This document shows positions 8,571 to 64,000 of a DNA stretch of 64,000 bases, piece by piece. The stretch comes from a virus: IMG/VR virus record IMGVR_UViG_3300034101_003081, positions 33,386-97,385 of that record, one strand, 5' to 3'. Within the stretch, counting starts at the first letter, position 1. Each line of letters begins with the position of its first letter. The notes below the pieces were generated by a model that saw nothing but the letters and a program-made list of their open reading frames with translations, searched no databases and was not told the origin of the DNA. Made by a program: the position numbers and the translations under genes.

Positions 8571-9437
8571 ATGACTCTCAGCAAGTTCTTCGATGACTTC
8601 TACAGGCCTCTCAAGTTGCGAGGCCGTTCAGAAAACACGACAAGGCTCTACGCCAATACGCTGAAGCAGTTCGGCAAGTACCTCGGCCGGGCCGCCACGA
8701 TCGAAGACGATCTCAATGACCTCGCAATCTCGCGATACCTCTCGCATCGAGCGAGAGAGCGAAGCGTGTTCACAGCGGAGAAGGAGCGGTCGCAGTTGCT
8801 GGCCCTCTGGAGGTGTGCGGCGGATCGGCGGCTCATCGACATGCGGCCGTGCGTGCCTCCGACACCGATCCCGATTCGCGTGCCAACGGCCTGGAGCATC
8901 GACCAACTCAAGGCCCTGCTCGCGACGGCCAAAGTGATGAAGGGCAAAGTCGGCGACGTACCGGCGCACGTCTGGTGGACGGCGCTCATTCAAGTTCTCT
9001 GGCAGAGCGCAGAGAGAATTGGCGCGATCATGTCCGTGATGAAAGAGGACTACACGCGGCCTATCGTTCTCGTCCGCGCAGAGTGCCGCAAGGGAGGCAA
9101 GCGGGACAAACTCTACACGTTCACTGACCCCGTCTGCGACCTGCTCGACGTCTTGAAGAAGTCTGGCAACGGCCCGCAACTCTTTGCGTGGCCGAGAGGA
9201 TACGAATACCTGTGGAACAGGTTTGGCAAGATCGTCAAGGCAGCGGGACTCGAAGGCGGGCGTCGCAGCAAGTTTCATCAACTGCGGCGAAGTGCGGCGA
9301 CGCACTTCGCTGCCCGTGGTGGCGATCCGACTGCCCTGCTAGATCACAGTTCGCCTCGCGTCACGAAGGCGTACCTCGATCCGCGATTTATCGACACGGG
9401 GCCGAAGCCGTGCGAAGTCTTGCCTGGACTTGACTAG
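8571..9437 (+). CDS. int: Tyrosine recombinase / phage integrase
   Basis: 288 residues, ATG at 8571 with AAGGAG 8 nt upstream. The N-terminal SAM-like core-binding domain covers residues 5-90 and the catalytic domain ~105-275. Catalytic set seen: R149 (SAERIGAI), the HxxR pair H236/R239 (HQLRRSAATHF), H259 (LLDHSSPRV) and Y268 (TKAYLD). I do not see the extra helix of integron integrases, so this is a phage-type enzyme rather than IntI. It marks the element as capable of lysogeny. Its 3' end overlaps the convergent DUF551 gene by 4 nt. Confidence 0.9.
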   Translation: MTLSKFFDDFYRPLKLRGRSENTTRLYANTLKQFGKYLGRAATIEDDLNDLAISRYLSHRARERSVFTAEKERSQLLALWRCAADRRLIDMRPCVPPTPIPIRVPTAWSIDQLKALLATAKVMKGKVGDVPAHVWWTALIQVLWQSAERIGAIMSVMKEDYTRPIVLVRAECRKGGKRDKLYTFTDPVCDLLDVLKKSGNGPQLFAWPRGYEYLWNRFGKIVKAAGLEGGRRSKFHQLRRSAATHFAARGGDPTALLDHSSPRVTKAYLDPRFIDTGPKPCEVLPGLD

Positions 9438-44080: not shown

Positions 44081-47000
44081 GTCGAGAACTTTCCATTCGT
44101 GACCGCAGACAGAAGCCGCATGACGTCGTCGCCGTAGTCCTTCCCAGACCACAAGCCAGCCAGAGTCTCTGCGACGAACTCACGGTGGCTCGTCGCTGCG
44201 TAGCGAGAGACGCTCTCGGCGACCTTTCGGCCCTCGTCGCCGAATGAGAGAGCAGAAGAAGCCTCGTACGACTCTTCGTCGGCCAAGGCGTGATGGCGAT
44301 GAGCCAGTTCGTGAAGCAGCGGATTCGGCTGCGAGAGCCAGCCGCGTGCAGAGGCCAGCCGGAACGAGGCAACAGCCTCGTGGTTCAGAGATTCAGAAAC
44401 GTAGATTGAGTCCGTGTCGAGGTCGTACTCGGCAATAGCCCTGCATTCGGCTGCTGGCCGAAACACAACGCTCGGGACGTCGACCTCGCCGGACTCTCTC
44501 AGTTCTGCGGCGAGGTCTTCTGCTGCTTGGCTGCCCGCTCGACCCTGACCCTCTCCCTCATCGCCTCGATCGCCGCCGCGATCTCGTCCGCCTTCGCCCC
44601 CGACGGGAAGTCGAACCGCACGAGTTTCTCTTTTTGGCCTTGTTCGTCTGCCATCGTATTCATCCTTTCTGATTTCTTTCTTTTCGTTCAAATCCCAGAT
44701 CGCGAGTTGACTCGTCGACTCAGCCGAATCAATGGCGTCGTTGATGTCGTCAAACGGCTCCGACAGATCAAGGTACACCGCATCTTCTTCGGCATTGTAC
44801 CAGCCGCCGATGTGAAGTGCAGGCCTGTCTGCGAACTTAGACTTGTTCTCATCCAAGAACTTGGAGATCACCTGTCCTGTGACTTTCTGCCCAGACGGAA
44901 CAATGGTCTCTGACTCGGGAACGACAGACACCATGTAGCCAGACGTGGGACTCGACTCCGAAACAGGATGGATAGAGAAGCCCTTAGTCTTTTCGAGAGA
45001 CTTGATCGCCATGTCTGCGATTCGGTCAGACTTGGCGCTGCTGCTTTCTTTGCCGCTGCCGCCCCCTGTGCCGCCGCCTGTGTCGGGAGCAAGTTTTTCT
45101 CCAGCGCCGCACGAATTGTCGATCCCGCCGCCTACGCCCGTCGGGCAGAACGCCCGCTGTTGCTTGCCCTTCTTGGCGATGCGACCGCCAGTCTTGAGGG
45201 ACGAGTCGTCGCGGTGAGCAGAGACAGGGTACTCTTTGCCTCTGTTGTAGAGCCGGTCGCTGATCTTCTCGGGGAACGCTGGCTTGGCGAGCGACTCGAT
45301 CTTCGACGCCTGATCTTTCGACAGCGTCTTGCCGACAGGGACAATGCCAGCGCCGCTGTAGCCCATCTCCACGTAGAAGATGTCTTTGCCGGACGAGTCG
45401 CGAACGCTGATGCCGATCTTGTCGCCAGCAACTTTTGCCGACGACCGGCCAGGCTTGCCGCCGAGTTGACGCACCAAGTCCTTGATGCGACGCTCGGACG
45501 TGCCCATCTGGTACAGTTTCTTGGCGACGCGAGTCTGCTTTTTGTCGCCTTCGCCGCGACGAAAGCCGCGGACAGGATCGTCGCTTTCGCTGGCGCCGGC
45601 TCCTGTGCCACAGTCGCGAGACTCCGGCATGCTCAGTTTCTCTTCAGGAATGATCCACAGTTTGCAGATCGCGTTTGGAGAGATGATTCCCTTCACGACC
45701 TCGCACGATCCGCCCTCTTCGTAGTAGATGCAGTTCCGGCATGCGATGCCGCGAGACGCGAAGGGATTCTTCTCCATGTAGTGAGCGCCGCTCGGGCCCT
45801 GCTGCGGCCAGCGACCACTCTTCTTGACGATCTCTTCCTGGGCGTCGTACAGGGCCTGGTTCTGCGGCGAGAGGGCTCGCTTCTCTTGGATCGGCTTGAG
45901 TTGCGAGACCTTGATTCCAGCCTCTTCGCCTGTCTCTTCGTCGACGACGAGGGCTACTGGCTCGCCTGGCTGGACTTCGATCTTCTCGCCGGACTTGAGG
46001 TCAAGCGTGCCCTTCTCCATGACATGCTTGACGCGGCCAGTCTTGCCGTCGCCGTAAGAAACAAGCACGCCTTCTTCTTTCGGCTTCGACTGCTCGCCAT
46101 GCTCGGCAGGGTTCGGAGACTTGCCAGTCTTGACCTCCGGAAGACTCGGCACGCCTCCTTGGGCCGGCGGCGGCGGGCCGCCTGGTGCGGGGTCCATCAT
46201 CGGGTCAGGCTTCGGCTTGACTGCATCTTCGAGGGTCTGCATGTTCATGCCGACGAAGTGCTTGTCGCCGTTTTCGAGCGGCGCCATGTTCTCCAGCCGG
46301 CGGCAGTCGTTGATCGAAAAAATCCCGAGGTTCGTCATCGTGGAGTAGTAGCCAGCGCGAGAGTTGGAGTCCCCTCGCATCAGCCCGCGGACGTCGAACT
46401 CGGCAACGAACAAGTCGTCGTTGTAGATCAGCGACCGAGAGATCGCGCTCTCGATGCGACGCAGCCAAGGCACCAGCGTGTAGGTGACGAAGTCCTGGCC
46501 CTCGATCTCCGGGTTGCCGCCCGACTGGCCCTGCACGAGCCTGAGAGGCAAGCGATAGACCCTCGCGATCTCTTCAGACTGAAACCTTCGCGTGGACTCG
46601 AACTGCGACTGCTCGGCCGTGAAGCCGACAGGCTCGACCTTGAGTCCGTTGGTGAGGATCGCCGTCTTGTACGCACGATCGACGCCGCGATGGAGTCTCT
46701 CCCAATTGTCTCGCAGCCGCTCGGCGGCCTCGGGCGAGAGCGATGCGTCTGTCTGTAGCACCATGCCAGGCCGGGCAGAGTTCGCCCAGAACTTGGCAGC
46801 GTGAATCTCGCAGGCCCTCGCGAGAGCAATCGCCTCGCGGGCAACCTCGACCGGGACCATGCCCTTGATGCCGTCGGGCTCCGGCGTCCACCGGACGTGC
46901 ATGATCTGGTCTTGCGTGGACGGCTCCAGCCTGCCCGTTTCTGGATTCGTGTACATGTAGCGAAGGCGGCCGTTTTCAAGCCGCTCCACTTCCATGCGAG

Positions 47001-47445
47001 ACGGGTGGAGGTTGATCAATTCAGAGACAGCGCCATACCGGCCACTCTTGATCTGCGTGTAGGAGTTGCCCCACAGGCAGAGGTTCATCACCATCTGCTC
47101 GAAGAACTCGAACTTGGTCTGCCAAGCGTTGGGCGCGAACGACAAGACCCGGTGCAAGGGGATGTCGCGGGCGATGTCTTTGCTTCCGCCTTCGCCGCGT
47201 CGATAGACGTGCAAGGGAAGGGAACTAATCGTTTCTGCCAAGATGCGGCAACAGGCCAAGACAACAGTGGACTGGAGAGCCGTCTCGGGCGTGACTCGGA
47301 CCTCGGCGTCTGTTCGCCACCGGCCGCCGTAGTTTTCTCCCGAGAGCAGGAAGTTGTTCCACGAGATGCCGCGAATCTCTGGATCAGACAGCCCGCGTTC
47401 TGGTGTCCAGACAATGTCAGACAAGGCGCGATCTTCGGTACTCAC
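44077..47445 (-). CDS. HK97-type portal protein with long cargo-like extension
   Basis: 1122 residues, ATG at 47445. Residues ~25-410 are an HK97-family portal (VVLACCRILAETISSLPLHV, WGNSYTQIKSGR, FWANSARPGMVLQT, RVYRLPLRLVQGQSGG). After a Pro-rich linker come a KPI-type beta domain, a Cys cluster (CRNCIYYEEGGSCEVV, CKLWIIP), a domain paralogous to one in 31388-33304 (MGTSERRIKDLVRQLGG), a junction motif RAFCPTGVGGGIDNSC and a C-terminal HExxH unit (LLHELAHRHH from 1043; later FVAETLAG). Ordinary portals are ~400-500 residues. The extension would hang inside the capsid or at the connector. Confidence 0.85.
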   Translation of the reverse strand: MSTEDRALSDIVWTPERGLSDPEIRGISWNNFLLSGENYGGRWRTDAEVRVTPETALQSTVVLACCRILAETISSLPLHVYRRGEGGSKDIARDIPLHRVLSFAPNAWQTKFEFFEQMVMNLCLWGNSYTQIKSGRYGAVSELINLHPSRMEVERLENGRLRYMYTNPETGRLEPSTQDQIMHVRWTPEPDGIKGMVPVEVAREAIALARACEIHAAKFWANSARPGMVLQTDASLSPEAAERLRDNWERLHRGVDRAYKTAILTNGLKVEPVGFTAEQSQFESTRRFQSEEIARVYRLPLRLVQGQSGGNPEIEGQDFVTYTLVPWLRRIESAISRSLIYNDDLFVAEFDVRGLMRGDSNSRAGYYSTMTNLGIFSINDCRRLENMAPLENGDKHFVGMNMQTLEDAVKPKPDPMMDPAPGGPPPPAQGGVPSLPEVKTGKSPNPAEHGEQSKPKEEGVLVSYGDGKTGRVKHVMEKGTLDLKSGEKIEVQPGEPVALVVDEETGEEAGIKVSQLKPIQEKRALSPQNQALYDAQEEIVKKSGRWPQQGPSGAHYMEKNPFASRGIACRNCIYYEEGGSCEVVKGIISPNAICKLWIIPEEKLSMPESRDCGTGAGASESDDPVRGFRRGEGDKKQTRVAKKLYQMGTSERRIKDLVRQLGGKPGRSSAKVAGDKIGISVRDSSGKDIFYVEMGYSGAGIVPVGKTLSKDQASKIESLAKPAFPEKISDRLYNRGKEYPVSAHRDDSSLKTGGRIAKKGKQQRAFCPTGVGGGIDNSCGAGEKLAPDTGGGTGGGSGKESSSAKSDRIADMAIKSLEKTKGFSIHPVSESSPTSGYMVSVVPESETIVPSGQKVTGQVISKFLDENKSKFADRPALHIGGWYNAEEDAVYLDLSEPFDDINDAIDSAESTSQLAIWDLNEKKEIRKDEYDGRRTRPKRETRAVRLPVGGEGGRDRGGDRGDEGEGQGRAGSQAAEDLAAELRESGEVDVPSVVFRPAAECRAIAEYDLDTDSIYVSESLNHEAVASFRLASARGWLSQPNPLLHELAHRHHALADEESYEASSALSFGDEGRKVAESVSRYAATSHREFVAETLAGLWSGKDYGDDVMRLLSAVTNGKFST
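45103..45153 (-). other. Cys-junction motif in the portal extension
   Basis: Encodes RAFCPTGVGGGIDNSC, nearly identical to junctions in the giant head protein and the protease. It marks the start of the last portal module. Confidence 0.7.
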
Positions 47446-47455
47446 GGAGCCCCCT

Positions 47456-48760
47456 TCACAGTAAGATGATCTCCGGATCGGCCATCTTTGGTGCAGCCTC
47501 TGCGTCGCTGGCGAGTGCGAGAGCCATGACGAGAGCGATCATGCCGTCCACTCTGGCCGGGCTCATGGCAGACGGCTTCGCGATCTTGATGTAGCCATCG
47601 GCATTGGTCTTGATCGTGCAATTTCCGGCCATCCAGTTCAGGATCGGGTTGTCGCTCGTTCGCAGTCGCCCCTGCGAAATCAGCCCGTCGAGTGCGCGAG
47701 TAGGCGCATTCATGGCTGAAAAGTTCTGGGAGAAGCCTAACACGTCCAATCCTTCGGCCTGAAGTTGTTGGACAAGGTAATGGGAGTTGTATGGGTCGGT
47801 GGCGATCCGCCTGAGAGTCCGCTCCTTGGCAAACTTCAAGATGTCCCGCTTGATGAACTCGTAATCACATGTGTCGCCAGGCGTCAGCGTCAGGCCGGTC
47901 TTCGGGTCTTTAGCCCACTGGATGTACGGCACTTCTTCGCGTCGGGTGTCAGCGTTGTCGGCAGGAATCCAGAACTTGCAGATCACGTCGAACACGTCGT
48001 CGTGGGCCTTCGAGACAGCCACGAAAGCGTTGACGTCCCAGGTTTGGGCAAGGTCGAGCCCGCCGTACCAGACCCGCGACGAGTCGAGCAGTCCGGAGTG
48101 GCCCTTGCACTGCTCCCACTGGGTCAGGTTCACGAACTTCTCTGTGCCAGCCACCCAGACATTGAGCCTGTACCGCAAGAACGACGAGAGCCTAGACGGC
48201 GACTGCTCGGCCTCGCGGACGTCCGCCTTGAAACTCTCCTCGTCCATGGTGACGCCGAAGGACGGATTTGCAGCCCGCCAAACTGCTGGGTCGCGGTAGT
48301 CATCTTCAGCCGTGGCCGCCGCGATGTAGGCGAAGTACTGGGGATCGAGACTTGGGTCTTGCATGACCTTGAGGGCATGCTCGTGCTGCTCGTAGCAGAT
48401 CGACGACCTGTCGTAGCCGGCCGTAGTAATCGCCAAGACTAGGCTCTGGCTGCGAGAAATACCGCCGTAGCGGATCGCATCCCAAAGTTTTCTGTCCTTT
48501 GCGGAGTGCAACTCGTCATAGCACAGGGAATGGATATTGAGCCCTTCTGCCCGGTGGCTGTCGCTAGAGATAACCCGCCAGAATGAGTTCGTCGGCACGC
48601 AGGCGATTGTCTTGCGGGAGTCGACGATCTCCAGACGCTTGGACAGGTACGGGCTGGAGCGGACAAGTTCCGCCATCTGCTTGTAGACGATCCCTGCTTG
48701 ATCGCGTGACGTTGCCGCCCCGAAGCACTCAGCGGCTGGCTCGGAGTCGGCCACCGTCAT
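47456..48760 (-). CDS. terL: Large terminase subunit, main reading frame after the insert
   Basis: 434 residues from ATG 48760, but homologous sequence continues upstream in the same frame to 48794 (KSTLLSGISLYM), so ATG 48760 is probably not the true start. Walker B is SLCYDELH, the coupling motif ITTAGYD follows, and the nuclease segment carries GGLDLAQTWD, IATDPYN and the late RVDGMIALVMALA. A protein starting at 48760 would lack Walker A and could not package DNA. With 48821-49123 joined across the 51-nt insert the protein is complete. Confidence 0.85.
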   Translation of the reverse strand: MTVADSEPAAECFGAATSRDQAGIVYKQMAELVRSSPYLSKRLEIVDSRKTIACVPTNSFWRVISSDSHRAEGLNIHSLCYDELHSAKDRKLWDAIRYGGISRSQSLVLAITTAGYDRSSICYEQHEHALKVMQDPSLDPQYFAYIAAATAEDDYRDPAVWRAANPSFGVTMDEESFKADVREAEQSPSRLSSFLRYRLNVWVAGTEKFVNLTQWEQCKGHSGLLDSSRVWYGGLDLAQTWDVNAFVAVSKAHDDVFDVICKFWIPADNADTRREEVPYIQWAKDPKTGLTLTPGDTCDYEFIKRDILKFAKERTLRRIATDPYNSHYLVQQLQAEGLDVLGFSQNFSAMNAPTRALDGLISQGRLRTSDNPILNWMAGNCTIKTNADGYIKIAKPSAMSPARVDGMIALVMALALASDAEAAPKMADPEIILL

Positions 48761-52588: not shown

Positions 52589-52672
52589 AGTGCTGTCCCT
52601 CCTTGGACGGCACTGATTTTACGACTCTTCTTGAGGTCACCCGAAGTTCTCGATCTTCTGCCAGCCAAAAAC

Positions 52673-52744
52673 GCACGCCCGAGGAATCGAACCTCGCCAG
52701 TCAGATTTGGAGTCCAACTCGCCAGCCTTGGAACATTGGCGTGC
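52673..52744 (-). tRNA. tRNA-Trp (anticodon CCA)
   Basis: The 7-bp acceptor GCACGCC/GGCGTGC is perfect, the T arm CGAGG-TTCGATT-CCTCG is perfect, and the anticodon loop CTCCAAA has CCA at 52708-52710 on the minus strand. The anticodon stem has two G-U pairs and the D arm is weak. No CCA end is encoded; the discriminator is G at 52672. It lies 2 nt after the pilin-like gene. Confidence 0.8.
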
Positions 52745-53364: not shown

Positions 53365-53407
53365 AACCACGCAATGCAGCGGTCGCGGGCCGCTGATCCT
53401 GCGTGTT
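53365..53407 (-). repeat. attC-like site S14
   Basis: 43 nt from AAC to GTT with arms matching the other sites (CGCAATGCAGCGG / CCGCTGATCCTGCG). It is the most distal copy, 3.3 kb from S13. Its right end reads GTTAGGT, the only one matching the GTTRRRY box. Confidence 0.65.
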
Positions 53408-53716: not shown

Positions 53717-54043
53717 TCACGGGTCGTCGCGCCAGTCGCTCAGGTCGCAAAGCGGAAGGCGAATGCCGTACCCATTCTCTGCCGTCAGGTCTTCCGTCAC
53801 ACCGACGTCCCCGAACCTAGACACCATGACAAGTTTCACGGTGGCGCCAGCCGAAACGGGAATCTCCACTTCTTTCGTGTTGCGGAGGTGCCGCATGACC
53901 ACGTCACGCTTCAGTGTCGCGTACCTGTGCGGCCACGTTTCAGGCCTGTGTGGCATCCAGCCGCGAGACATGGCATGGTCTGCCCCAGCCAGAGCGAAGT
54001 GGTCTCGGTCGCCACCGTACTGCGATGTGGATGAATCACTCAT
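53717..54043 (-). CDS. Hypothetical protein
   Basis: 108 residues, ATG at 54043 with AGGAG 7 nt upstream. HRPETWPHRYATLKRDVVMR, then a beta half (EIPVSAGATVKLVMVSRFGD). No family recognised. Confidence 0.6.
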   Translation of the reverse strand: MSDSSTSQYGGDRDHFALAGADHAMSRGWMPHRPETWPHRYATLKRDVVMRHLRNTKEVEIPVSAGATVKLVMVSRFGDVGVTEDLTAENGYGIRLPLCDLSDWRDDP

Positions 54044-54074
54044 GCAATGCTCCTGATGTGTGTCTTTGCATGCG

Positions 54075-54446
54075 TCAGTCGAAGCCGCCAGAGTCGCAAG
54101 AACCGCTGTCGGCTGGCGGCTCGGGTAGCGGTGCCCAGTGTGTGATGCCAAATGAATCTACGTCGTCATCGTCCATATCGCAGAAACGCCACATGACGCC
54201 GTCGCGCGAAGCCATTTGAGCAAGTCGAATGTTTTCCGGAAAAGCCCTTGTGACAGCCAAGACGGTTGTATCCACTACTGGCAGCCGCTCGCCCACGGGT
54301 ATCCAGCGTCGCGCGTTCATGTCCTCGACCATCTCGTCAAGAAGTTCCCTCGAAATGACGGTCGCAGTGGCACCCTCGGGCCAGTGAACGGTCACGCGGC
54401 CGTCCTTATCGCGAGAGTACTCCACGTTGGGCACAAGGCCGATCAT
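54075..54446 (-). CDS. DUF551-domain protein
   Basis: 123 residues, ATG at 54446 sharing TGATG with the previous stop. The N-terminal half (MIGLVPNVEYSRDKDGRVTV) is separate. C-terminal WIPVGERLPVVDTTVLAVTR, then FGITHWAPLPEPP is the DUF551 pattern with an added Cys/Gly tail (GSCDSGGFD). Function unknown. Part of a TGATG-coupled run of four genes. Confidence 0.75.
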   Translation of the reverse strand: MIGLVPNVEYSRDKDGRVTVHWPEGATATVISRELLDEMVEDMNARRWIPVGERLPVVDTTVLAVTRAFPENIRLAQMASRDGVMWRFCDMDDDDVDSFGITHWAPLPEPPADSGSCDSGGFD

Positions 54447-54733
54447 CACGTCACCTCCGGCGGCTCTTTCGTCCAGACCTTCACGGGCAACTCCCCGATT
54501 CGTTTCGATGCGCCGCCGACCGTGAGGAACGCCCACACGAACAGCGTCGCCAGCCTCGCGGCCTGAAACACTGTCGCGTGCCGGCGAGCAACCATGAAAT
54601 GCGACCACCACAGCCAAGGCGTCGAAAGCACCTTCTTCCACTTCGGCTGTCTGCATAGCCTGACCATCTCGCGTGGCTCGCAATGCAGTCGCTTCCATTC
54701 GGAGTACAGCAACGAGACGTTGGGCTCGCCCAT
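54446..54733 (-). CDS. Small membrane protein ending in PPEV
   Basis: 95 residues, ATG at 54733 (TGATG). Near residue 58 a hydrophobic segment (ARLATLFVWAFLTVGG) may span the membrane. It ends KEPPEVT, encoding a Shine-Dalgarno-like GGAGGTGA that precedes the next TGATG. No family recognised. Confidence 0.6.
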   Translation of the reverse strand: MGEPNVSLLYSEWKRLHCEPREMVRLCRQPKWKKVLSTPWLWWSHFMVARRHATVFQAARLATLFVWAFLTVGGASKRIGELPVKVWTKEPPEVT

Positions 54734-55029
54734 CACTTCACCTCCGGCGGTGCGGGTAGCGGCATCCAATGTCGCGGCATCTCGTCTCCGTACTCGCTCG
54801 TCCAGAGGTTGTGGCCGTCTATCCGGTCCAACGTCGCCACGGTAATCATCCCGCCATTGCCGTCGCATCCGATGCAAGACGGCGTGCCGTTTTTGTCTAG
54901 GAACCGGAGGAACACCAGCACAGATTCGCCCGGCTCCGGCAACGCTTCCTCGACGGGAATCCACCGTCGCGCCCACTTGTGCGGCTTCGGTTCCATGGCG
55001 GCGATCTCCTGGTGCTTGAGGTGGCCCAT
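54733..55029 (-). CDS. DUF551-domain protein
   Basis: 98 residues, ATG at 55029 (TGATG). WIPVEEALPEPGESVLVFLR, then GDEMPRHWMPLPAPPEVK. The final PPEVK encodes GGAGGTGAAG and the stop joins the next start. Function unknown. Confidence 0.75.
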   Translation of the reverse strand: MGHLKHQEIAAMEPKPHKWARRWIPVEEALPEPGESVLVFLRFLDKNGTPSCIGCDGNGGMITVATLDRIDGHNLWTSEYGDEMPRHWMPLPAPPEVK

Positions 55030-55502
55030 CACTTCATCTCCGGGGGTTCTGGCAGTTTCATCCAGTGGGTGATGCCTGGGTAAAGGTCGCTCTCTTGTGA
55101 CTCTCGCCATTCGCCGTTTCTGTATTCGCAGAGAACGTGTCCCTGCCACGGCTTTAGGCATTGGCCGCCGCCGTTCCACACCAATACTTCCTGATCCTCT
55201 TCCGGCAGCCGCTCGCCCACGGGAATCCAACGTCGTTCATTCCGTAGATGCTCGATCTCGTCTGCCGCGTGCGTGACGCAATAGTGCAGCAGCGAAGCCG
55301 AGTCGCCCGCCTGCGGCGACACTGCTGAGAACCCGACGCCGCGAAGCACTGTCACGATGTCCGTGATGTCTTCCCCGGCCCGCATCGTCTCGTCGTAGCC
55401 GCGACGCTCTTTCGCCAGGTCTGCCAGTTCGCACGCTGCTGCAATGGCGTCGTCGCCTCCGTTTCGGATTCGAGCGTCGAGTTCTTTCATGTAGCCGCTC
55501 AT
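55029..55502 (-). CDS. DUF551-domain protein with helical N-terminus
   Basis: 157 residues, start at 55502 overlapping the previous stop. The N-terminal ~90 residues are helical (ACELADLAKERRGYDETMRA). The C-terminal domain is RWIPVGERLPEEDQEVLVW, then GITHWMKLPEPPEMK. The end again codes an SD-like GGAGATGA before TGATG. Confidence 0.75.
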   Translation of the reverse strand: MSGYMKELDARIRNGGDDAIAAACELADLAKERRGYDETMRAGEDITDIVTVLRGVGFSAVSPQAGDSASLLHYCVTHAADEIEHLRNERRWIPVGERLPEEDQEVLVWNGGGQCLKPWQGHVLCEYRNGEWRESQESDLYPGITHWMKLPEPPEMK

Positions 55503-56686: not shown

Positions 56687-56765
56687 AACCACGCGATGCA
56701 GCGGACCCGCGATGCCGCTGCCGGTATGGTAACTCAGCGGTCGCGGGCCGCTGATCGCTGGCGTT
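56687..56765 (-). repeat. attC-like site S13
   Basis: 79 nt, long-stem form with the central CCGCGATGCCG...CGGTCGCGGG extension. Its left flank (GAGAGAAC, minus) complements the start of the cassette ending here (GTTCTCTT after S12). Confidence 0.75.
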
Positions 56766-56768
56766 CTC

Positions 56769-57062
56769 TCACTTACCCGACTCGTCATCTGCCGGTGGCG
56801 TGTACGGCACCAGTTCGATCTCGTTGAACGTGTCGATTTCCCGTACGTACCCCGCCGCCTCACCGAAGTACGCCCGCACCTTGTAGTGCAACTGCACGCC
56901 GCCGGGACACTCTTGGTACAGCCGCTCGATGATTTGCATGGCGGGAGTGCCTCGCTCGCGAGTAAAGAATCCCTTCTGCTTGCCAAAGCCTAGCGTCACC
57001 GAAATCGGCTGAACGAAGTCGCCAACCTTGAACTTGAAATGCTCGTACTGCGGACTTGCCAT
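56769..57062 (-). CDS. Cassette gene: small beta protein
   Basis: 97 residues, ATG at 57062. FKFKVGDFVQPISVTLGFGK, then RERGTPAMQIIERLYQECPG reads as a small beta-barrel-like domain (xKVGDxV) often seen in one-gene accessory units. Single gene between S12 and S13. Function unknown. Confidence 0.65.
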   Translation of the reverse strand: MASPQYEHFKFKVGDFVQPISVTLGFGKQKGFFTRERGTPAMQIIERLYQECPGGVQLHYKVRAYFGEAAGYVREIDTFNEIELVPYTPPADDESGK

Positions 57063-57080
57063 GTCGTCTCCTTACAAGAG

Positions 57081-57160
57081 AACCACGCGATGCAGCGGAC
57101 CCGCGATGCCGTCTGCCGGTATGGTAAGTCAGCGGTCGCGGGCCGCTGATCGCAAGCGTT
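57081..57160 (-). repeat. attC-like site S12
   Basis: 80 nt, long-stem form. Left flank ATGAGAAC complements the start of its own cassette after S11 (GTTCTCAC) for 7 nt. Confidence 0.75.
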
Positions 57161-57161
57161 C

Positions 57162-57545
57162 TCATGCTAGCCGCTCAATCAGTCCCCTGAGCGTGCAGGC
57201 GGCAGCGGCATCCATCGGTCCAGCATCCGCTGAAACGTCCTCTACGCCAACAAGGGAGTCGATGCCACGCTCAATCGCCTCCCGCTCCTCGTCGGTGAGC
57301 CGCAGTCTTGCAAGCCTCTCCTCTGCCTCTGTCAAGAGGCCGTGTAGCCACTGGAGGCTCCCTCGCTGCTGCTCAATCTCATCGACAGCCCACCGAACAA
57401 TGTCGCTCGCCTCAACTCGGTCGCCACTGTCCGGGTCGCCCAGCCCCATGCCACGCACGCCGTCGATCAGCGTGCGAAGGACCGAAAGCGTGTCGCCGTG
57501 AGAACCACGCGATGCAGCGGACATCTCATCTACCTCGTTTGTCAT
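57162..57545 (-). CDS. Cassette gene: DEEREAIE/LLxR family protein
   Basis: 127 residues; SD (AGGAG) and ATG at 57545 both lie inside site S11. It starts MTNEVDEMSAASRGSHGDTL, with the middle part translated from the site arm. C-terminal LRLTDEEREAIERGIDSLVG, then LRGLIERLA is the family tail. Helical throughout. Function unknown. Confidence 0.65.
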   Translation of the reverse strand: MTNEVDEMSAASRGSHGDTLSVLRTLIDGVRGMGLGDPDSGDRVEASDIVRWAVDEIEQQRGSLQWLHGLLTEAEERLARLRLTDEEREAIERGIDSLVGVEDVSADAGPMDAAAACTLRGLIERLA

Positions 57546-57583
57546 GGTTGCTCCTGTGTTCGATGCCGCTGATCGCTGGTGTT
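57503..57583 (-). repeat. attC-like site S11
   Basis: 81 nt. It carries an RBS and start codon for the next gene in its spacer. Left flank GTGAGAAC complements its cassette start after S10 (GTTCTCAG) for 7 nt. Confidence 0.75.
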
Positions 57584-57584
57584 C

Positions 57585-57926
57585 TCACTTCGTCCGCTCA
57601 AGCAGTGCGCGGAGCGTAGCCCTGCGGTCAGGGCGTGGCGTGCCGTCGTATTCGGTGTATGGGCCGTCGGGCAAAAACGGGATGGCAATCTCAATCGCCT
57701 CCCGCTCCTCGTCGGTGAGCGTGGGGGCAAAATACAACGGTGCGAGCGGCAGTGGTCGGTTGGTTTCGCCAAAAAGGCACTCTCTTGCGAGACTCATGGC
57801 CTCGTCCTTCTGGTGGTCCGCGAATGCCTCATAGACCGACAGATCGCCCGGCGGGCCGTCAGTCACCGCCCACGCCACCGGCTGAGAACCAGCCGATGCA
57901 ACAGACCGCTCATTTTCGTCGTTCAT
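57585..57926 (-). CDS. Cassette gene: PVAW/DEEREAIE protein
   Basis: 113 residues, ATG at 57926 inside S10; the N-terminus MNDENERSVASAGSQPVAW comes from the site arm. PVAWAV, then APLYFAPTLTDEEREAIEIA and RATLRALLERTK. The last 40 residues are almost identical to 60732-61082, evidence of recent duplication or conversion. Function unknown. Confidence 0.7.
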   Translation of the reverse strand: MNDENERSVASAGSQPVAWAVTDGPPGDLSVYEAFADHQKDEAMSLARECLFGETNRPLPLAPLYFAPTLTDEEREAIEIAIPFLPDGPYTEYDGTPRPDRRATLRALLERTK

Positions 57927-57968
57927 AGTTGCCGCCTCCTTTGTTCGCGGCTGTTGATCGTTCACGTT
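57887..57968 (-). repeat. attC-like site S10
   Basis: 82 nt with RBS (AAAGGAGG) and ATG for the next gene inside. Left flank CCACAGAAC matches by complement its cassette start after S9 (GTTCTGTGGC), 10 nt. Confidence 0.8.
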
Positions 57969-57974
57969 CTGTGG

Positions 57975-58394
57975 CTAACCGTTCTCTGCGAAAGATTCCG
58001 CCGCCATAGCGTCCAGCATCCGTCTGCGTGTGGTCGCGTCCGAGACGGATGCCGCAATCTCCATCAAGGCCGCCGCCGTCTTTCGCAGTTCGACCAGTTC
58101 CGCATCTCGCTCGGCAACCTGCTTTTGCAGCCACGCCTCGCATGTACGCAAGGCGTCTCTCTCTTGAGCCACCTTCACCAACTGATGCTCTAGCAAGTCG
58201 CCAGCCGCAAGCAGCAGGCTTTCCTTTTTCCGCAGCCGCTCTATCTCTTGTGCAGCCTCGTCCATCATCTCTCCAGGCGTTGGGTAGCCGCGCTCGTCTC
58301 TCCATGCCGCTAGTTGCGAGGCCACGCTATTCGCCACAGAACCAGCGGATGCAAGAGACGGCTCGGCCGCGTCTCGCGTGTTGTCATCGCTCAT
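57975..58394 (-). CDS. Cassette gene: coiled-coil protein
   Basis: 139 residues, ATG at 58394 inside S9. It starts MSDDNTRDAAEPSLASAGSV, where AAEPSLASAG is encoded by the site arm. The rest is coiled coil (AAQEIERLRKKESLLLAAGD and on to the end). No enzyme motif. Function unknown. Confidence 0.7.
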   Translation of the reverse strand: MSDDNTRDAAEPSLASAGSVANSVASQLAAWRDERGYPTPGEMMDEAAQEIERLRKKESLLLAAGDLLEHQLVKVAQERDALRTCEAWLQKQVAERDAELVELRKTAAALMEIAASVSDATTRRRMLDAMAAESFAENG

Positions 58395-58421
58395 AGTTCG
58401 CCGCTCCTGATCCGTGTCGTT
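58340..58421 (-). repeat. attC-like site S9
   Basis: 82 nt with AGGAG and ATG inside. Left flank GGTAGAAC complements its own cassette start after S8 (GTTCTACC), 8 nt, but not its right flank (GTTCTGTG). Confidence 0.8.
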
Positions 58422-58589
58422 CTACCTCTCGCCACCACCACTTGCTTCTGCCTCCACTTGCGGGGCAGGCTCGGAATGCGTTGCCGACCGCCTGTACCCA
58501 GCCGTCGCCAGAGAGAACGCCAAGATCACAACGAACAGAACCCCAAAAGCGGCGTTGAAATCGTCATCCGGCGTTACTGGGCAGACCAT
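58422..58589 (-). CDS. Cassette gene: small single-span membrane protein
   Basis: 55 residues, ATG at 58589 with GAGAGGAAAACG upstream. One hydrophobic segment (FGVLFVVILAFSLATAGY) and an acidic tail. Single gene between S8 and S9. Function unknown. Confidence 0.6.
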   Translation of the reverse strand: MVCPVTPDDDFNAAFGVLFVVILAFSLATAGYRRSATHSEPAPQVEAEASGGGER

Positions 58590-58616
58590 CGTTTTCCTCT
58601 CTTGTGAATCCGGTAG

Positions 58617-58657
58617 AACCACGCAATCCAGCGGACGGGCCGCTGATCGCTGGTGTT
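58617..58657 (-). repeat. attC-like site S8
   Basis: 41 nt, short form. Left flank CACAGAAC complements its cassette start after S7 (GTTCTGCG) for 6 nt. Confidence 0.75.
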
Positions 58658-58663
58658 CTGTGG

Positions 58664-58858
58664 CTACTTGCCGTCCGATGGCGGGGCCGGGAGCGACATC
58701 CAGTGGGTGACGTTGCTGGTGATTCGGATGCTTCCTTCCCAAAACTCACCCTCCCAACGCACGGCGACGCGGCACTCGCGGCCATTCTTGTGCCAGACAA
58801 GGCACTGTACATCGTCGTCCGGAAGCCGCTCCGTCACCGGAATCCACTCCCCGCTCAT
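58664..58858 (-). CDS. Cassette gene: DUF551 protein
   Basis: 64 residues; ATG at 58858 (MSGEWIPVTERLPDDDVQCL). Ends NVTHWMSLPAPPSDGK. A minimal complete DUF551 domain as a one-gene cassette. The upstream TTG at 58891 is a weaker start. Confidence 0.7.
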   Translation of the reverse strand: MSGEWIPVTERLPDDDVQCLVWHKNGRECRVAVRWEGEFWEGSIRITSNVTHWMSLPAPPSDGK

Positions 58859-58911
58859 ATTCGTAATCCGTCGCTTTCCGTTGGTTTTCAAATACGTTCG
58901 GTTCGCCGCAG

Positions 58912-58952
58912 AACCACGCGATGCAGCGGACGAGCCGCTGATCGCTGGCGTT
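58912..58952 (-). repeat. attC-like site S7
   Basis: 41 nt. Left flank CCAGATAAC is the exact complement of its cassette start after S6 (GTTATCTGG), 9 nt, while its own right flank is GTTCTGCG. Confidence 0.85.
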
Positions 58953-59232
58953 ATCTGGAAATCGAAACCATGATTCGGCCATCCTTACTCGTGACCGTAC
59001 ATGACGCCCTAAGAGTCCGAATGCCGTCAAGGGTTTCGGCCTCATACTGAACGCCTTCGACTTGAAACGTCACGCGGTAGCCGCCCCAAATCCCGTCATA
59101 GGTTCCATCGGGGATGCGATCTACGCTTTCAATCCGCCTTAGTTTCCCAGCGAGTGTCGCCATTCCGGCCTCCAGATAACCAGCGGATGCAGGAGACGGC
59201 TCGGCACCGTCCTGCGTGTTATCGTCGCTCAT
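58951..59232 (-). CDS. Cassette gene: small beta protein
   Basis: 93 residues, ATG at 59232 inside S6, with the site-encoded start MSDDNTQDGAEPSPASAGY. Then GTYDGIWGGYRVTFQVEGVQ and YEAETLDGIRTLRASCTVTS, a compact beta domain. Function unknown. Confidence 0.65.
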   Translation of the reverse strand: MSDDNTQDGAEPSPASAGYLEAGMATLAGKLRRIESVDRIPDGTYDGIWGGYRVTFQVEGVQYEAETLDGIRTLRASCTVTSKDGRIMVSISR

Positions 59233-59259
59233 AGTTCGCCGCTCCTGATCCTGCGTGTT
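59178..59259 (-). repeat. attC-like site S6
   Basis: 82 nt with AGGAG and ATG inside. Left flank GCCACAGAAC complements its cassette start after S5 (GTTCTGTG), 8 nt; its right flank GTTATCTG does not. Confidence 0.8.
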
Positions 59260-59265
59260 CTGTGG

Positions 59266-59454
59266 CTACTTGCCGCTCAACTGCCTCGCCACAGAAATCT
59301 GCACTGACTGCCACCACGCAACCGAAACAGCGTCTCCGTGCAAGGACCGCGCATTTGCTTGTGGGCATGGAGGCAAGTCAGCAGGCCAGAGGCCGCGACG
59401 GCCGTTCGGCACAGAACCAGCCGATGCAACAGACCGCTCGTCAGTGTCGCTCAT
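59266..59454 (-). CDS. Cassette gene: short protein with site-derived start
   Basis: 62 residues, ATG at 59454 inside S5 (MSDTDERSVASAGSVPNGRR). The remainder (NARSLHGDAVSVAWWQSVQI) has no recognisable domain. It may be real or a decayed cassette. Confidence 0.5.
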   Translation of the reverse strand: MSDTDERSVASAGSVPNGRRGLWPADLPPCPQANARSLHGDAVSVAWWQSVQISVARQLSGK

Positions 59455-59496
59455 GTGCGCCGCCTCCTTTGTTCGCGGCTGTTGATCGTTCACGTT
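59415..59496 (-). repeat. attC-like site S5
   Basis: 82 nt with AAAGGAGG and ATG. Left flank GCATAAC complements its cassette start after S4 (GTTATGC), whereas its right flank is GTTCTGTG. Confidence 0.8.
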
Positions 59497-59767
59497 ATGC
59501 TACAGTTGGCCCGGCTATCGTCGTTCCAGTTACGGCCGCGTCAATTACTACCCGCATCGCCTTTGCCAGCATCCAGCAGTGCCACCCGGCCCCTTCCTTT
59601 GTCTTGCAATCCGCCACCTTGAAATGCTGCGGCCCGATGGTCAGCCACGCGGAATGCGCGTCGGGCCAATCTTCGTCGATGGCCTTCGTCACCCGCGTGT
59701 ACCTCTCAGCCAAAGCCCAGTCTCGGGCGGTCGCTTCCGTTGGCAGTTCAGGCATCATCCAGTTCAT
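59495..59767 (-). CDS. Cassette gene: hypothetical protein
   Basis: 90 residues, ATG at 59767, just downstream of S4. PTEATARDWALAERYTRVTK, then WLTIGPQHFKVADCKTKEGA and WHCWMLAKAMRVVIDA. Balanced composition suggests a folded domain. Function unknown. Confidence 0.65.
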   Translation of the reverse strand: MNWMMPELPTEATARDWALAERYTRVTKAIDEDWPDAHSAWLTIGPQHFKVADCKTKEGAGWHCWMLAKAMRVVIDAAVTGTTIAGPTVA

Positions 59768-59772
59768 GGCAT

Positions 59773-59852
59773 AACCACGCGATGCAGCGGACCCGCGATG
59801 CCGTCTGCCGGAATGGTAAGTCAGCGGTCGCGGGCCGCTGATCGCAAGCGTT
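59773..59852 (-). repeat. attC-like site S4
   Basis: 80 nt, long-stem form. Left flank GGCATAAC complements its cassette start after S3 (GTTATGCT) for 7 nt. Confidence 0.75.
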
Positions 59853-59858
59853 ATGCCA

Positions 59859-60092
59859 CTACCGCAGCGCCGGTGTCTTTGGAGCCGCCAAGTCGCTCAC
59901 ATACAAGGCGTAATCGACGCCCTGCCGCGTGCCGACTCGGTTGATGAATCCCGTCAGGATGGTGTCGATTACATCCTGCGGCGGGCATTCCGTGACAGTG
60001 TGCATATGAGCATTTCGCTGGTAGTGGTCAGCGTCATTGCGGAAGTCTCGGGCGATGTCAGTGAGCATTTGCAGCAGTTCGATCTTCGTCAT
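59859..60092 (-). CDS. Cassette gene: hypothetical helical protein
   Basis: 77 residues, ATG at 60092. MTKIELLQMLTDIARDFRND, then PQDVIDTILTGFINRVGTRQ. One gene between S3 and S4. Function unknown. Confidence 0.65.
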   Translation of the reverse strand: MTKIELLQMLTDIARDFRNDADHYQRNAHMHTVTECPPQDVIDTILTGFINRVGTRQGVDYALYVSDLAAPKTPALR

Positions 60093-60118
60093 GTCTGTCT
60101 CCTTCGTTGAAAAAGCAT

Positions 60119-60159
60119 AACCACGCGATGCAGCGGACGAGCCGCTGATCGCTGGCGTT
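60119..60159 (-). repeat. attC-like site S3
   Basis: 41 nt. Left flank AAGAGAAC complements its cassette start after S2 (GTTCTCTC) for 7 nt; its right flank is GTTATGCT. Confidence 0.8.
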
Positions 60160-60162
60160 CTC

Positions 60163-60426
60163 TTATTTCTTGCTCGCCCGTTGGGCAGCCCTGCGGCACT
60201 TCGGACACTCGTATGTCACGCCGTCCGACCAGTAGCGGGAAAAAAACGCCACCATGTCTGGCGACATCGGCTTCTTCAACTTGCCGACTCCGTTCGTCAG
60301 CACCTCTGTCCGCTCGTAGCCGCACGGCCACCGATAGGTGACGTTGCTGCCGTCGCGAGCCACAACGCGGGCGCGGTGGCCGTACATCCCGCACTGCGTC
60401 AGCGGCTTTTTGATTGTGTTTGCCAT
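60163..60426 (-). CDS. Cassette gene: zinc-ribbon protein
   Basis: 87 residues, ATG at 60426. Contains CGMYGHRARVVARDGSNVTY, RWPCGYERTE, then VTYECPKCRRAAQ, a CxxC ribbon near the end. The leader holds GTATCC-GACT-GGATAC, a dyad related to the start-associated motif. Shares a cassette with 60467-60652. Confidence 0.65.
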   Translation of the reverse strand: MANTIKKPLTQCGMYGHRARVVARDGSNVTYRWPCGYERTEVLTNGVGKLKKPMSPDMVAFFSRYWSDGVTYECPKCRRAAQRASKK

Positions 60427-60466
60427 GCCCATATGGTATCCAGTCGGATACAGGCTGTCCAGCGGT

Positions 60467-60652
60467 TTAGTTTTTCTCGCCTTTCCCGTAGTTTTCCGCA
60501 TCCGACCGCCTGACGAAGTTCTGGCCGTCGATCCTGACGCCGGGCAGGCGGCCCTGTGAGATGAGCCGGTTGATGTAGGCCCGCGTGACGCCTGCCATCT
60601 TTGCGGCGGTGCCGACGCGAACGTATTCATCGGGGTCGATTTTTTTTGCCAT
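60467..60652 (-). CDS. Cassette gene: excisionase-like HTH protein
   Basis: 61 residues, ATG at 60652. EYVRVGTAAKMAGVTRAYIN, then RLISQGRLPGVRIDGQNFVR is a complete MerR/Xis-type HTH with the wing. It may regulate its neighbours or act on recombination. The leader resembles that of 60163-60426. Confidence 0.75.
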   Translation of the reverse strand: MAKKIDPDEYVRVGTAAKMAGVTRAYINRLISQGRLPGVRIDGQNFVRRSDAENYGKGEKN

Positions 60653-60688
60653 GCCAGCATTGTAGCCAATCGGATAGCGACGAGAGAG

Positions 60689-60730
60689 AACCAAGCGATG
60701 CAGCGGACAGAGCCGCTGATCGCAAGCGTT
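60689..60730 (-). repeat. attC-like site S2
   Basis: 42 nt. Left flank GTGAGAAC is the exact complement of its cassette start after S1 (GTTCTCAC), 8 nt. Confidence 0.8.
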
Positions 60731-60731
60731 C

Positions 60732-61082
60732 TCACTTTGTCCGCTCAAGCAGTGCGCGGAGCGTAGCCCTGCGGTCAGGGCGTGGCGTCCCGTCGTATTC
60801 GGTGTATGGGCCGTCGGGCAGAAACGGGATGGCAATCTCAATCGCCCCCCGCTCCTCGGCGGTGAGCGTAGGCTGCGGGTTGCGGTAGAGCGGGACGACC
60901 TGCGCCATCCCGACAACCGCACCTTGGGCGTCCTGCCGATGGTACGCCAGCCACAGCGGCACGCCGTTCTTTCCGACCGCTGCCCAGGCTACAGGCACGC
61001 CGTTCCATCGCGATGCCGACCCGTGAGAACCAGCGGATGCAAGAGACGGCTCGGCCGCGTCATGCGTGTTGTCAGTGTTCAT
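60732..61082 (-). CDS. Cassette gene: PVAW/DEExxAIE protein
   Basis: 116 residues, ATG at 61082 inside S1 (MNTDNTHDAAEPSLASAGSH). VPVAWAAVGKNGVPLW, then VVPLYRNPQPTLTAEERGAI and a tail nearly identical to 57585-57926. Function unknown. Confidence 0.7.
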   Translation of the reverse strand: MNTDNTHDAAEPSLASAGSHGSASRWNGVPVAWAAVGKNGVPLWLAYHRQDAQGAVVGMAQVVPLYRNPQPTLTAEERGAIEIAIPFLPDGPYTEYDGTPRPDRRATLRALLERTK

Positions 61083-61109
61083 AGTTCGCCGCTCCTGATC
61101 CGTGTCGTT
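61028..61109 (-). repeat. attC-like site S1
   Basis: 82 nt with AGGAG and ATG for the next gene inside. Upstream-most recognised site; its own cassette start (expected GTTCTCAA) is not found above 61109. Confidence 0.7.
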
Positions 61110-61110
61110 C

Positions 61111-61407
61111 TCAACCTATCCGTTCCAGCATGGCCCGCAACGCAACCGCCCGCTTTCCGTCCTCAACGTGGCCCATCTGCGTTGCGCCTTGCTCGTAGAT
61201 CATGGCCGCAACCTCAATCGCCTCCCGCTCCTCGTCGGTGAGCGTGCTATCCATCGTCACAGTCACGTTGCCGTCGCACACCGACAGCGTGGCGTCCTGA
61301 TCCGCGAGTCGGCGGATGGCCTCGCGCAGCCGTTCGATCTCGGCCCGCTGATCCTGCATGATCTGATCCGCCTGCTCCCATGACATGATGCCCGCATCAG
61401 GACTCAT
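61111..61407 (-). CDS. DEEREAIE/LLER family protein
   Basis: 98 residues, ATG at 61407 overlapping the previous stop (ATGA). DQIMQDQRAEIERLREAIRR coiled coil, then STLTDEEREAIEVAAMIYEQ and ALRAMLERIG. The stop joins S1. Function unknown. Confidence 0.65.
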   Translation of the reverse strand: MSPDAGIMSWEQADQIMQDQRAEIERLREAIRRLADQDATLSVCDGNVTVTMDSTLTDEEREAIEVAAMIYEQGATQMGHVEDGKRAVALRAMLERIG

Positions 61408-61649
61408 TTCGTCCGCTCCAGTAGGCCGCGAAGCGCCACCACTCTGCCGGGCTCAGGCCCGCCGTACCACTCGGCGTCCAACTCTCTCCCGATGGCAATC
61501 TCAATCGCCTCCCGCTCCTCGTCGGTGAGCCGCAGTCGCTCAATCGCGTCGGCCGCCTCTGTGATGCACTGCACGGCGATCCCGTCCTCGCAATGGATGT
61601 CGCGAGCGAGGACACGCAAGGCCCGAACAAGTGTGGCGGTGTCGCTCAT
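61404..61649 (-). CDS. DEEREAIE/LLER family protein
   Basis: 81 residues, ATG at 61649 (ATGA overlap). ALRVLARDIHCEDGIAVQCI, then LRLTDEEREAIEIAIGRELD and LRGLLERTK. The final codons supply GGAG and ATGA for the next start. Function unknown. Confidence 0.65.
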   Translation of the reverse strand: MSDTATLVRALRVLARDIHCEDGIAVQCITEAADAIERLRLTDEEREAIEIAIGRELDAEWYGGPEPGRVVALRGLLERTK

Positions 61650-62518
61650 TTCGTCCTCGCCAGTAGCCCAAGCAACTGCTCTCGTATCCACTGCGCCCGG
61701 CCGCCAGGGTCTGGGTGGTAGAGGTGATCGTAGGCGGCCAACTCAATCGCCTCGCACTCCTCTGCGGTGATCGCGGGCTGGCGGTAGAGCGGGACGATAC
61801 CGTGATTCCCGGTTACTGCCTCGTCAATCGCCTTGGCGTCCTCTTCGATGGCATAGACATCGTAGATGCGTTCACCGCCCGCGAGCATGACAGCCCACGC
61901 AACTGGCTCCTGTGTATCTCGCCCCCGCCCACCCGCTGCGTGATCCCTTGTCGGGGCGCCCGCGTCTAGGGGCCGCCACTCGTCGCTGCCGACGCGCTGC
62001 GTTGCGGCGGCTGGTGGCACACACTTGCGCGACGAGTCGCGATCTGTCTCCACGCATGGTGGAGCAGTCTGATTGCCGGTGCCCGCATCGCTCTCGCGAC
62101 TCCGACAGGCGGCATGATCCGCCTCCGGCAACTGGGCTCTCGCCGCCGGCGCGGCGTCATGATTTGATTTGGCGTCGATGCGACGGCGGTAGGCGTGCTC
62201 GTCTTCACACGGCCGCCCCAGCAACTGAGATTTGCGCCATCCGCCGTCACTCCCGATGTATTCGTCTCCAGCCATCAGGGCCTCGTCAGCCTCCACCCAC
62301 CGCCAGCCCTCGCCCGGCGAATCATTGTCCTCGCCTGCCGATTTGCCGGCACCGGACAATCGCTCCAACGCCGCCACTCGCCGCTCAAGATTCGCGTTGG
62401 CGAGTTTGGCCCGCAGGGACGCGATCTCGTCGGCGGCCTCGCGAATCGCAGGCCTGGCAGCCAAAAACGTGGTGTTTTCAGCCAGATACTCAAGTCTCTG
62501 AACGATGTCTTGGCTCAT
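61646..62518 (-). CDS. Large DEExxAIE-family accessory protein
   Basis: 290 residues; ATG at 62518 (MSQDIVQRLEYLAENTTFLA). Coiled-coil N-terminus, then GEGWRWVEADEALMAGDEYI, a long low-complexity Asp/Arg/Ser linker, then EPVAWAVMLAGG, IVPLYRQPAITAEECEAIEL and LLGLLARTK. The PVAW/PLY/EExxAI order is shared with the small cassette proteins. Function unknown. Confidence 0.65.
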   Translation of the reverse strand: MSQDIVQRLEYLAENTTFLAARPAIREAADEIASLRAKLANANLERRVAALERLSGAGKSAGEDNDSPGEGWRWVEADEALMAGDEYIGSDGGWRKSQLLGRPCEDEHAYRRRIDAKSNHDAAPAARAQLPEADHAACRSRESDAGTGNQTAPPCVETDRDSSRKCVPPAAATQRVGSDEWRPLDAGAPTRDHAAGGRGRDTQEPVAWAVMLAGGERIYDVYAIEEDAKAIDEAVTGNHGIVPLYRQPAITAEECEAIELAAYDHLYHPDPGGRAQWIREQLLGLLARTK

Positions 62519-63714: not shown

Positions 63715-64000
63715 TTAGAACTTGTTGAAATATGCAGACAACAGGACGTTTACATCGAACGAACGACCGCCTCCGTAAATGCGCGCAGTCGTCGCGTTGG
63801 TTGGCACGCAAAACACGCGACCGTCCGGGAGCAGCACGCCACCGCCGTAGGCGGTGCCGCCTGGATACGAGCCGCTGGGCGTAGTGAGCGTGTTGGTGAC
63901 TGGGTCGTAAATGCGCGCAGTCGTCGCGCTGGCTGGCACGCAAAACACGCGACCGTCCGGGAGCAGCACGCCACCGAAGTAGGCGGCGCCGCCCGGATAC
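63715..64000 (-). CDS. C-terminal end of a kelch-like repeat fibre protein
   Basis: 94 visible residues; the gene continues beyond 64000. A 44-residue repeat (GGVLLPDGRVFCVPASATTA, then RIYDPVTNTL) appears twice with near-identical DNA (132-bp period). It ends FDVNVLLSAYFNKF. Kelch-like blades of this form occur in phage fibre or host-binding proteins. Confidence 0.7.
   Translation of the reverse strand, partial: YPGGAAYFGGVLLPDGRVFCVPASATTARIYDPVTNTLTTPSGSYPGGTAYGGGVLLPDGRVFCVPTNATTARIYGGGRSFDVNVLLSAYFNKF

Follow-up and report, generated by a model that had tools for sequence, protein, structure and literature searches.

Clusters of integron recombination sites (attC) in phage genomes are an already known category, since Qi et al. 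2023 (PMC9892861) have published 17 of them and IntI1 recombined five of the six phage sites tested. In this work, we have analysed the last 64 kb (64,000 nucleotides, hereafter the window) of the 97,385-base IMG/VR virus record IMGVR_UViG_3300034101_003081, where 13 attC sites, S1 to S13, separate 12 cassettes within 4.4 kb (56687-61109). As in the integrase-less attC cassette arrays (CALINs) of Qi et al., attCs and cassettes lie here in a phage genome with no neighbouring intI gene; those phages, however, have other hosts, the cassettes of TJE1 and PH101 are described as all running the same way, as is typical of arrays in bacteria, and the text of that paper (PMC9892861) mentions neither Planctomycetes nor ribosome sites. 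What we describe differs from them by its 13 sites in one phage and 16 in another, its presence in several phage lineages, its inverted genes and its embedded start codons. The Vibrio anguillarum prophages (PMC9892861) are likewise phages bearing integron parts, but what they carry is a piece captured from the host's integron, IntIA and Vibrio-type attCs included, whereas here no IntI was detected and the cassettes have the look of a phage pool. The sedentary chromosomal integrons of planctomycetes, such as that of genome G021, share with the phage arrays the attC geometry, similar non-canonical R boxes and matched cassette ends, although in them IntI adjoins the array and the cassette bodies are longer (median 507 nt against ~280 nt). 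The first-pass annotation of this DNA had read the locus as integron-type cassettes inside a phage, which attC anatomy, end-matching, the sharing of single cassettes and junctions at GTT all support; its remark that no phage with such an array was known had been overtaken by the 2023 report.

We consider it probable that the locus is a CALIN in a hypervariable region of the phage, with exchange by a host IntI, inverted genes and attCs that act as start modules. According to this explanation an uncultured phage, probably of planctomycetes, would carry the integrase-less array as its hypervariable region, each cassette being one interval plus the site on its right (on the window + strand), with the crossover predicted where that site ends in G|TT. 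On the bottom (-) strand, each site would fold into a hairpin for recognition by an integron integrase, and the IntI of chromosomal integrons in planctomycetes, whose attCs have this geometry, would probably excise and insert cassettes through attC x attC exchange while the phage infects or coinfects the cell. The genes are inverted relative to attC and would therefore be read along with the leftward genes of the phage, and the long attCs may double as translation-start modules, providing a Shine-Dalgarno (SD) sequence, an ATG and a common N-terminal tag that runs through the AAC end into the gene. The sequences themselves show the anatomy and polarity of the sites, where the junctions lie, that cassettes are shared, that the genes are inverted and that starts are embedded; a trans-acting IntI, the host, expression and any benefit to the phage are inferred from them.

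The 13 repeats bounded by AAC and GTT that had been noticed in the first pass were all found again, each of them an imperfect inverted repeat ending in these triplets (13/13). They fall into three size classes: 41-42 nt (S6, 58617-58657; S7, 58912-58952; S11, 60119-60159; S12, 60689-60730), 79-80 nt (S1, 56687-56765; S2, 57081-57160; S10, 59773-59852) and 81-82 nt (S3, 57503-57583; S4, 57887-57968; S5, 58340-58421; S8, 59178-59259; S9, 59415-59496; and the right-most, S13, 61028-61109). Their layout is AAC, 5 nt, GAT[G]CAGCGG[A]C, an interior, CCGCTGATC, 6 nt and GTT, where the bracketed bases have no partner. An unpaired 5/6-nt spacer between R and L boxes is present in 78 of 81 phage sites and in all 28 host sites, and on the AAC side two bases separated by 6 nt are extrahelical (G in 77/81 phage and 28/28 host sites, A in 76/81 and 27/28). 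Published attCs carry their extrahelical bases on the R''-L'' arm, with a conserved pair 6-8 nt apart (PMC2727003), and the window + strand is therefore taken as the attC top strand for all 13 sites. Read on the bottom strand, the second extrahelical base is the usual T, whereas C takes the place of G at the first, a substitution that host sites share. Non-Watson-Crick positions also favour wobble pairing on the bottom strand (bottom-only against top-only 14:2 in phages and 3:0 in hosts), and the stems covary, with 97.6% of cells paired and 14 cells doubly changed, values that none of 500 shuffles reached for either measure. A structure-only attC finder gave 10 strong matches on the + strand of the window and none on the - strand, against at most one in each of 20 Markov-shuffled windows. 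Hairpin energies separate the two strands poorly, and both tagged long sites that were folded are not clearly stabler than shuffled sequence.

The ends of the intervals match one another as those of once-circular cassettes should, as the first-pass annotation had proposed. Beyond the GTT/AAC triplets, the complementarity in the 12 successive intervals is 4, 4, 4, 7, 5, 3, 7, 5, 4, 4, 4 and 5 nt, that is, 6-10 nt in 12/12 once the triplet is counted. The summed match of 56 compares with a mean of 22.5 (standard deviation 5.9) for randomly re-paired ends and was reached in 0 of 200,000 permutations, far beyond chance, while the two ends of one and the same site agree far less well, with a summed match of 29.

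Comparison with other viral records suggests that the cassette, body plus attC, is the mobile unit and that its junction lies at G|TT. A site model (R1) built from the 13 window sites and applied at E<=0.01 matched 105 sites spread over 60 viral sources, along with 40 in bacterial loci. Bacterial genomes gave no match to a stricter attC pattern and 12 loci with a looser one. Sites are present in 20 of the 36 viral records tested, in several phage lineages, among them some records with terminases 37-46% identical and large ones in which no relative of the terminase was detected. Cassette bodies with a common right end have right sites of 86-95% identity, and for the most part their left sites show no relationship (47-69%, with a single pair at 93%). 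In the viral record L017, the two copies of a duplicated cassette are ~96% identical from the GTT of their left sites, which belong to different classes, to a point just beyond the right site's GTT, and a cassette common to L059 and the window diverges at the GTT after S4. L017 and the window have terminases that are 99% identical and backbone DNA that is 84-89% identical, yet they share one cassette (97%). Related phages thus bear different arrays with junctions at the GTT end, and the sites do not travel together with a conserved gene order. A cut at the AAC end was also considered, prompted by homology between L071 and the DNA near the AAC of S13, and was rejected: the right array flank (window 61026-62164) is kept in L071 (7348-8483, 86%) with a different adjoining site and cassette, the aligned L071 site belongs to another class, and the flank homology begins at about GTT. 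A chimeric or contaminated assembly was rejected, since the DNA on either side of the array is found again in independent viral records.

The first-pass description of the array was right about the cassettes and had overlooked two of their properties, the reversed direction of the genes and the start codons within most long sites. In a codon model trained on phage genes, 50 phage cassettes read opposite to the attC strand, two read with it and 16 were unclear, so that 50 of the 52 clear cassettes depart from the usual, though not obligatory, co-direction of gene and attC; in planctomycete arrays 64 read with attC, three against it and 36 were unclear (Fisher p 3e-27 for phage against host). 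Both phage exceptions are window intervals (58422-58616 and 59497-59772) in which credible - strand genes are found by eye, and every cassette holds a plausible - strand gene. The attC polarity runs against the direction of the terminase gene in 11 of the 11 records that have both. Inside the sites, an SD-like motif, a start codon and a frame that stays open past the AAC end and on into the cassette gene lie on the bottom strand of 51 of 60 long phage sites, compared with 0/33 short phage sites and 2/26 host sites. In codon-position counts only the bottom strand shows an excess at third positions (72, 65, 108; p 0.0015), which is weak support, as the set mixes well and poorly aligned pairs. 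In the window these modules encode the tags MTNEVDEMSAASRGS (S3), MNDENERSVASAGS (S4), MSDDNTRDAAEPSLASAGS (S5), MSDDNTQDGAEPSPASAGY (S8), MSDTDERSVASAGS (S9) and MNTDNTHDAAEPSLASAGS (S13); MSDDNTxDAAEPSxASAGS and the peptides of S4 and S3 recur among sites, and different cassette proteins would therefore share N-terminal tags. The tags are presumably translated. In the literature searched, which left subscription papers and preprints outside, we found neither a systematic inversion of cassettes nor start codons within attC described. What appears new is thus the inversion of the genes against attC, the embedded SD, ATG and tag, and the occurrence of such sites in several phage lineages while the cassette family tested is nearly absent from planctomycetes.

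The enzyme most likely to move these cassettes seems to be a host IntI acting in trans. The first-pass annotation had seen no IntI, which holds: the IntI model TIGR02249 has no match in the record itself, and no IntI was found in 26 related viral records, some possibly incomplete, so that none of them shows a complete integron with intI in cis. IntI scores above the curated cut-off in the planctomycete genomes G020, G021 and G024, whose loci carry this attC type, and in G021 a large array of this attC geometry adjoins the IntI gene. The planctomycete IntI of G021 and G024 (L149, 18290-19222) sit in open frames of ~490 aa with a long N-terminal extension.

The phage does encode another tyrosine recombinase (8571-9437, + strand), a XerA-like protein that the first pass had passed over, and it could be this enzyme that moves the cassettes, making the array a phage integron independent of IntI. 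The gene is intact here and in many relatives, several of them with arrays; it is also present in array-less relatives such as G027-G030 and was not found in the array-bearing records G010 and G014 (122-123 kb, possibly incomplete). The protein does not match the integron integrase model and has no counterpart of the IntI-specific segment that planctomycete IntI has between box I and box II. To our knowledge, no tyrosine recombinase other than IntI uses a folded single-stranded attC, which we also count against this explanation, and we regard it as quite unlikely. It is also unlikely, in our view, that the array is a fossil, its cassettes placed by an integrase long ago and its present variation due only to homologous recombination at repeated attCs and gene motifs. 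Such recombination does have material to work on: same-class attCs are alike enough, and chimeric cassettes break at a conserved 30-bp motif, TCAATCGCCTCCCGCTCCTCGTCGGTGAGC, which occurs in the LTDEEREAIE genes and is found five times in the window, inside and outside the array (57271, 57691, 60838, 61214 and 61501; 0-2 mismatches). Cassettes switch partners at this motif, which looks like a second, homology-based shuffling point. A fossil array would nevertheless leave unexplained why the L017 duplicate starts at GTT behind two left sites that differ in class and are 66% identical, a position at which homology would not put it, why nearly all sites have kept the end complementarity and both extrahelical bases, and why close backbones bear almost wholly different arrays. 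Finally, the SD, ATG and conserved leader peptide in 51 of the 60 long sites would be expected if the repeats were hairpins serving translation or transcription, leader modules before small genes and no recombination sites at all. We find this hardly credible, as neither the 33 short sites nor any examined 79-80 nt site has a start, the sites have the same geometry as the attCs of planctomycete integron arrays, and neither the matched interval ends nor the GTT junctions are predicted by it.

Several observations weigh against a CALIN worked by a host IntI. The R boxes lack the consensus RYYYAAC / GTTRRRY and read NAGAAC or NATAAC; the printed host sites beside IntI in G021 depart from RYYYAAC as well. 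R1 was trained on the window and may favour window-like sites, an IntI gene might lie in missing portions of the viral records, and the evidence for recombination is comparative throughout. Since several shared cassettes are chimeric at the 30-bp motif, homologous recombination shapes the array too. The protein of cassette 12, of the LTDEEREAIE family, had only two weak matches in 392 planctomycete genomes and none in INPHARED, so that direct cassette traffic with host chromosomes was not seen for this one protein. The comparison with planctomycete integrons that the first-pass annotation had proposed therefore succeeded for the sites, which have the same geometry and in G021 stand beside IntI, and failed for the cassette protein. 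From the one family searched in host genomes, a phage-specific cassette pool is suggested. Whether phage lineages keep a cassette economy of their own, set apart from the host by inversion and start-module attCs, with immediate expression from phage transcription and possibly driven by the phage recombinase, is a call that we would place just short of even.

The host assignment is a further point of weakness, being made from attC type and terminase similarity with no prophage that carries an array. A planctomycete is likely, though not certain, to be the host: the closest terminase is 44% identical among the 392 planctomycete genomes, against 39% in INPHARED. A host prophage with such an array was sought around the nearest planctomycete terminases, which gave one confident single site and no array, and INPHARED gave no similar phage by array DNA or by one cassette protein. 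The record itself is a genuine phage, because virion and packaging genes surround the array. The terminase large subunit (47456-48760, - strand) and an open reading frame (ORF) with a portal protein domain (44077-47445, - strand) mark the phage backbone, and genes for a head protease, a tape measure protein, tail proteins, helicases, a primase and a methyltransferase are also present. A tail-fibre-like tandem repeat is common to both record ends (window 63715-63999 and L001 1-180), which fits a possibly near-complete genome split at this repeat, where the contig probably broke.

If our explanation is true, integron cassette exchange is a gene-swapping system among phages and extends beyond the host fragments that phages have picked up. 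The fixed inversion of the genes and the start codons in attC depart from the way cassettes are normally laid out, and this suggests that expression from phage transcripts has been selected for. Phage use of host integrases during infection becomes a testable question, and the sites offer an unusual natural set of attCs that would have to serve recombination and translation both.

The cassette genes, all on the - strand, are small. Cassette 1 encodes 97 aa of no assigned family (56769-57062). Cassettes 2 (57162-57545, 127 aa, starting within S3) and 3 (57585-57926, starting within S4) belong to the LTDEEREAIE family; the right two-thirds of the cassette 2 body is 97% identical to an L017 cassette, and the right part of cassette 3 is 97.5% identical to an L059 cassette. 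Cassette 4 encodes a coiled-coil-like protein of 139 aa (57975-58394) that starts within S5, and cassette 5 one of ~55 aa with a hydrophobic stretch (58422-58589), an ORF reading against which the codon model points the other way. Cassette 6 carries a DUF551 (PF04448) gene (58664-58858). The gene of cassette 7 (58951-59232, 93 aa) starts within S8 and its TAA stop spans the GTT of S7, and that of cassette 8 (59266-59454) starts within S9. Cassette 9 encodes 90 aa (59495-59767), with the codon model again pointing the other way, and cassette 10 encodes 77 aa (59859-60092). Cassette 11 (60163-60652) holds, by reading, two small genes, one Cys-rich (60163-60426) and one helix-turn-helix-like (60467-60652), and cassette 12 (60732-61082, 116 aa), whose gene is of the LTDEEREAIE family, starts within S13.

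DUF551-like proteins (ITHWMxLPxPP) occur outside the array (window 54075-55502) as well as in cassette 6. Nearby, the window gene at 53717-54151 is plain here and an attC-tagged cassette in L017 (2594-2935, 82.6% DNA identity), which suggests that plain phage genes and cassettes can be converted into one another. A tRNA-Trp gene with CCA anticodon lies at 52672-52744 on the - strand; an Rfam search of the window gave no match. An isolated short attC, S0 (53365-53407, + strand; 36.2 bits with R1), stands beside the start of the MFGWFKKKK gene. The L066 version of this gene (96.8% identical) adjoins an 82-nt attC at one array end, and S0 looks like that site minus its interior, lost between two CAGCGG repeats.

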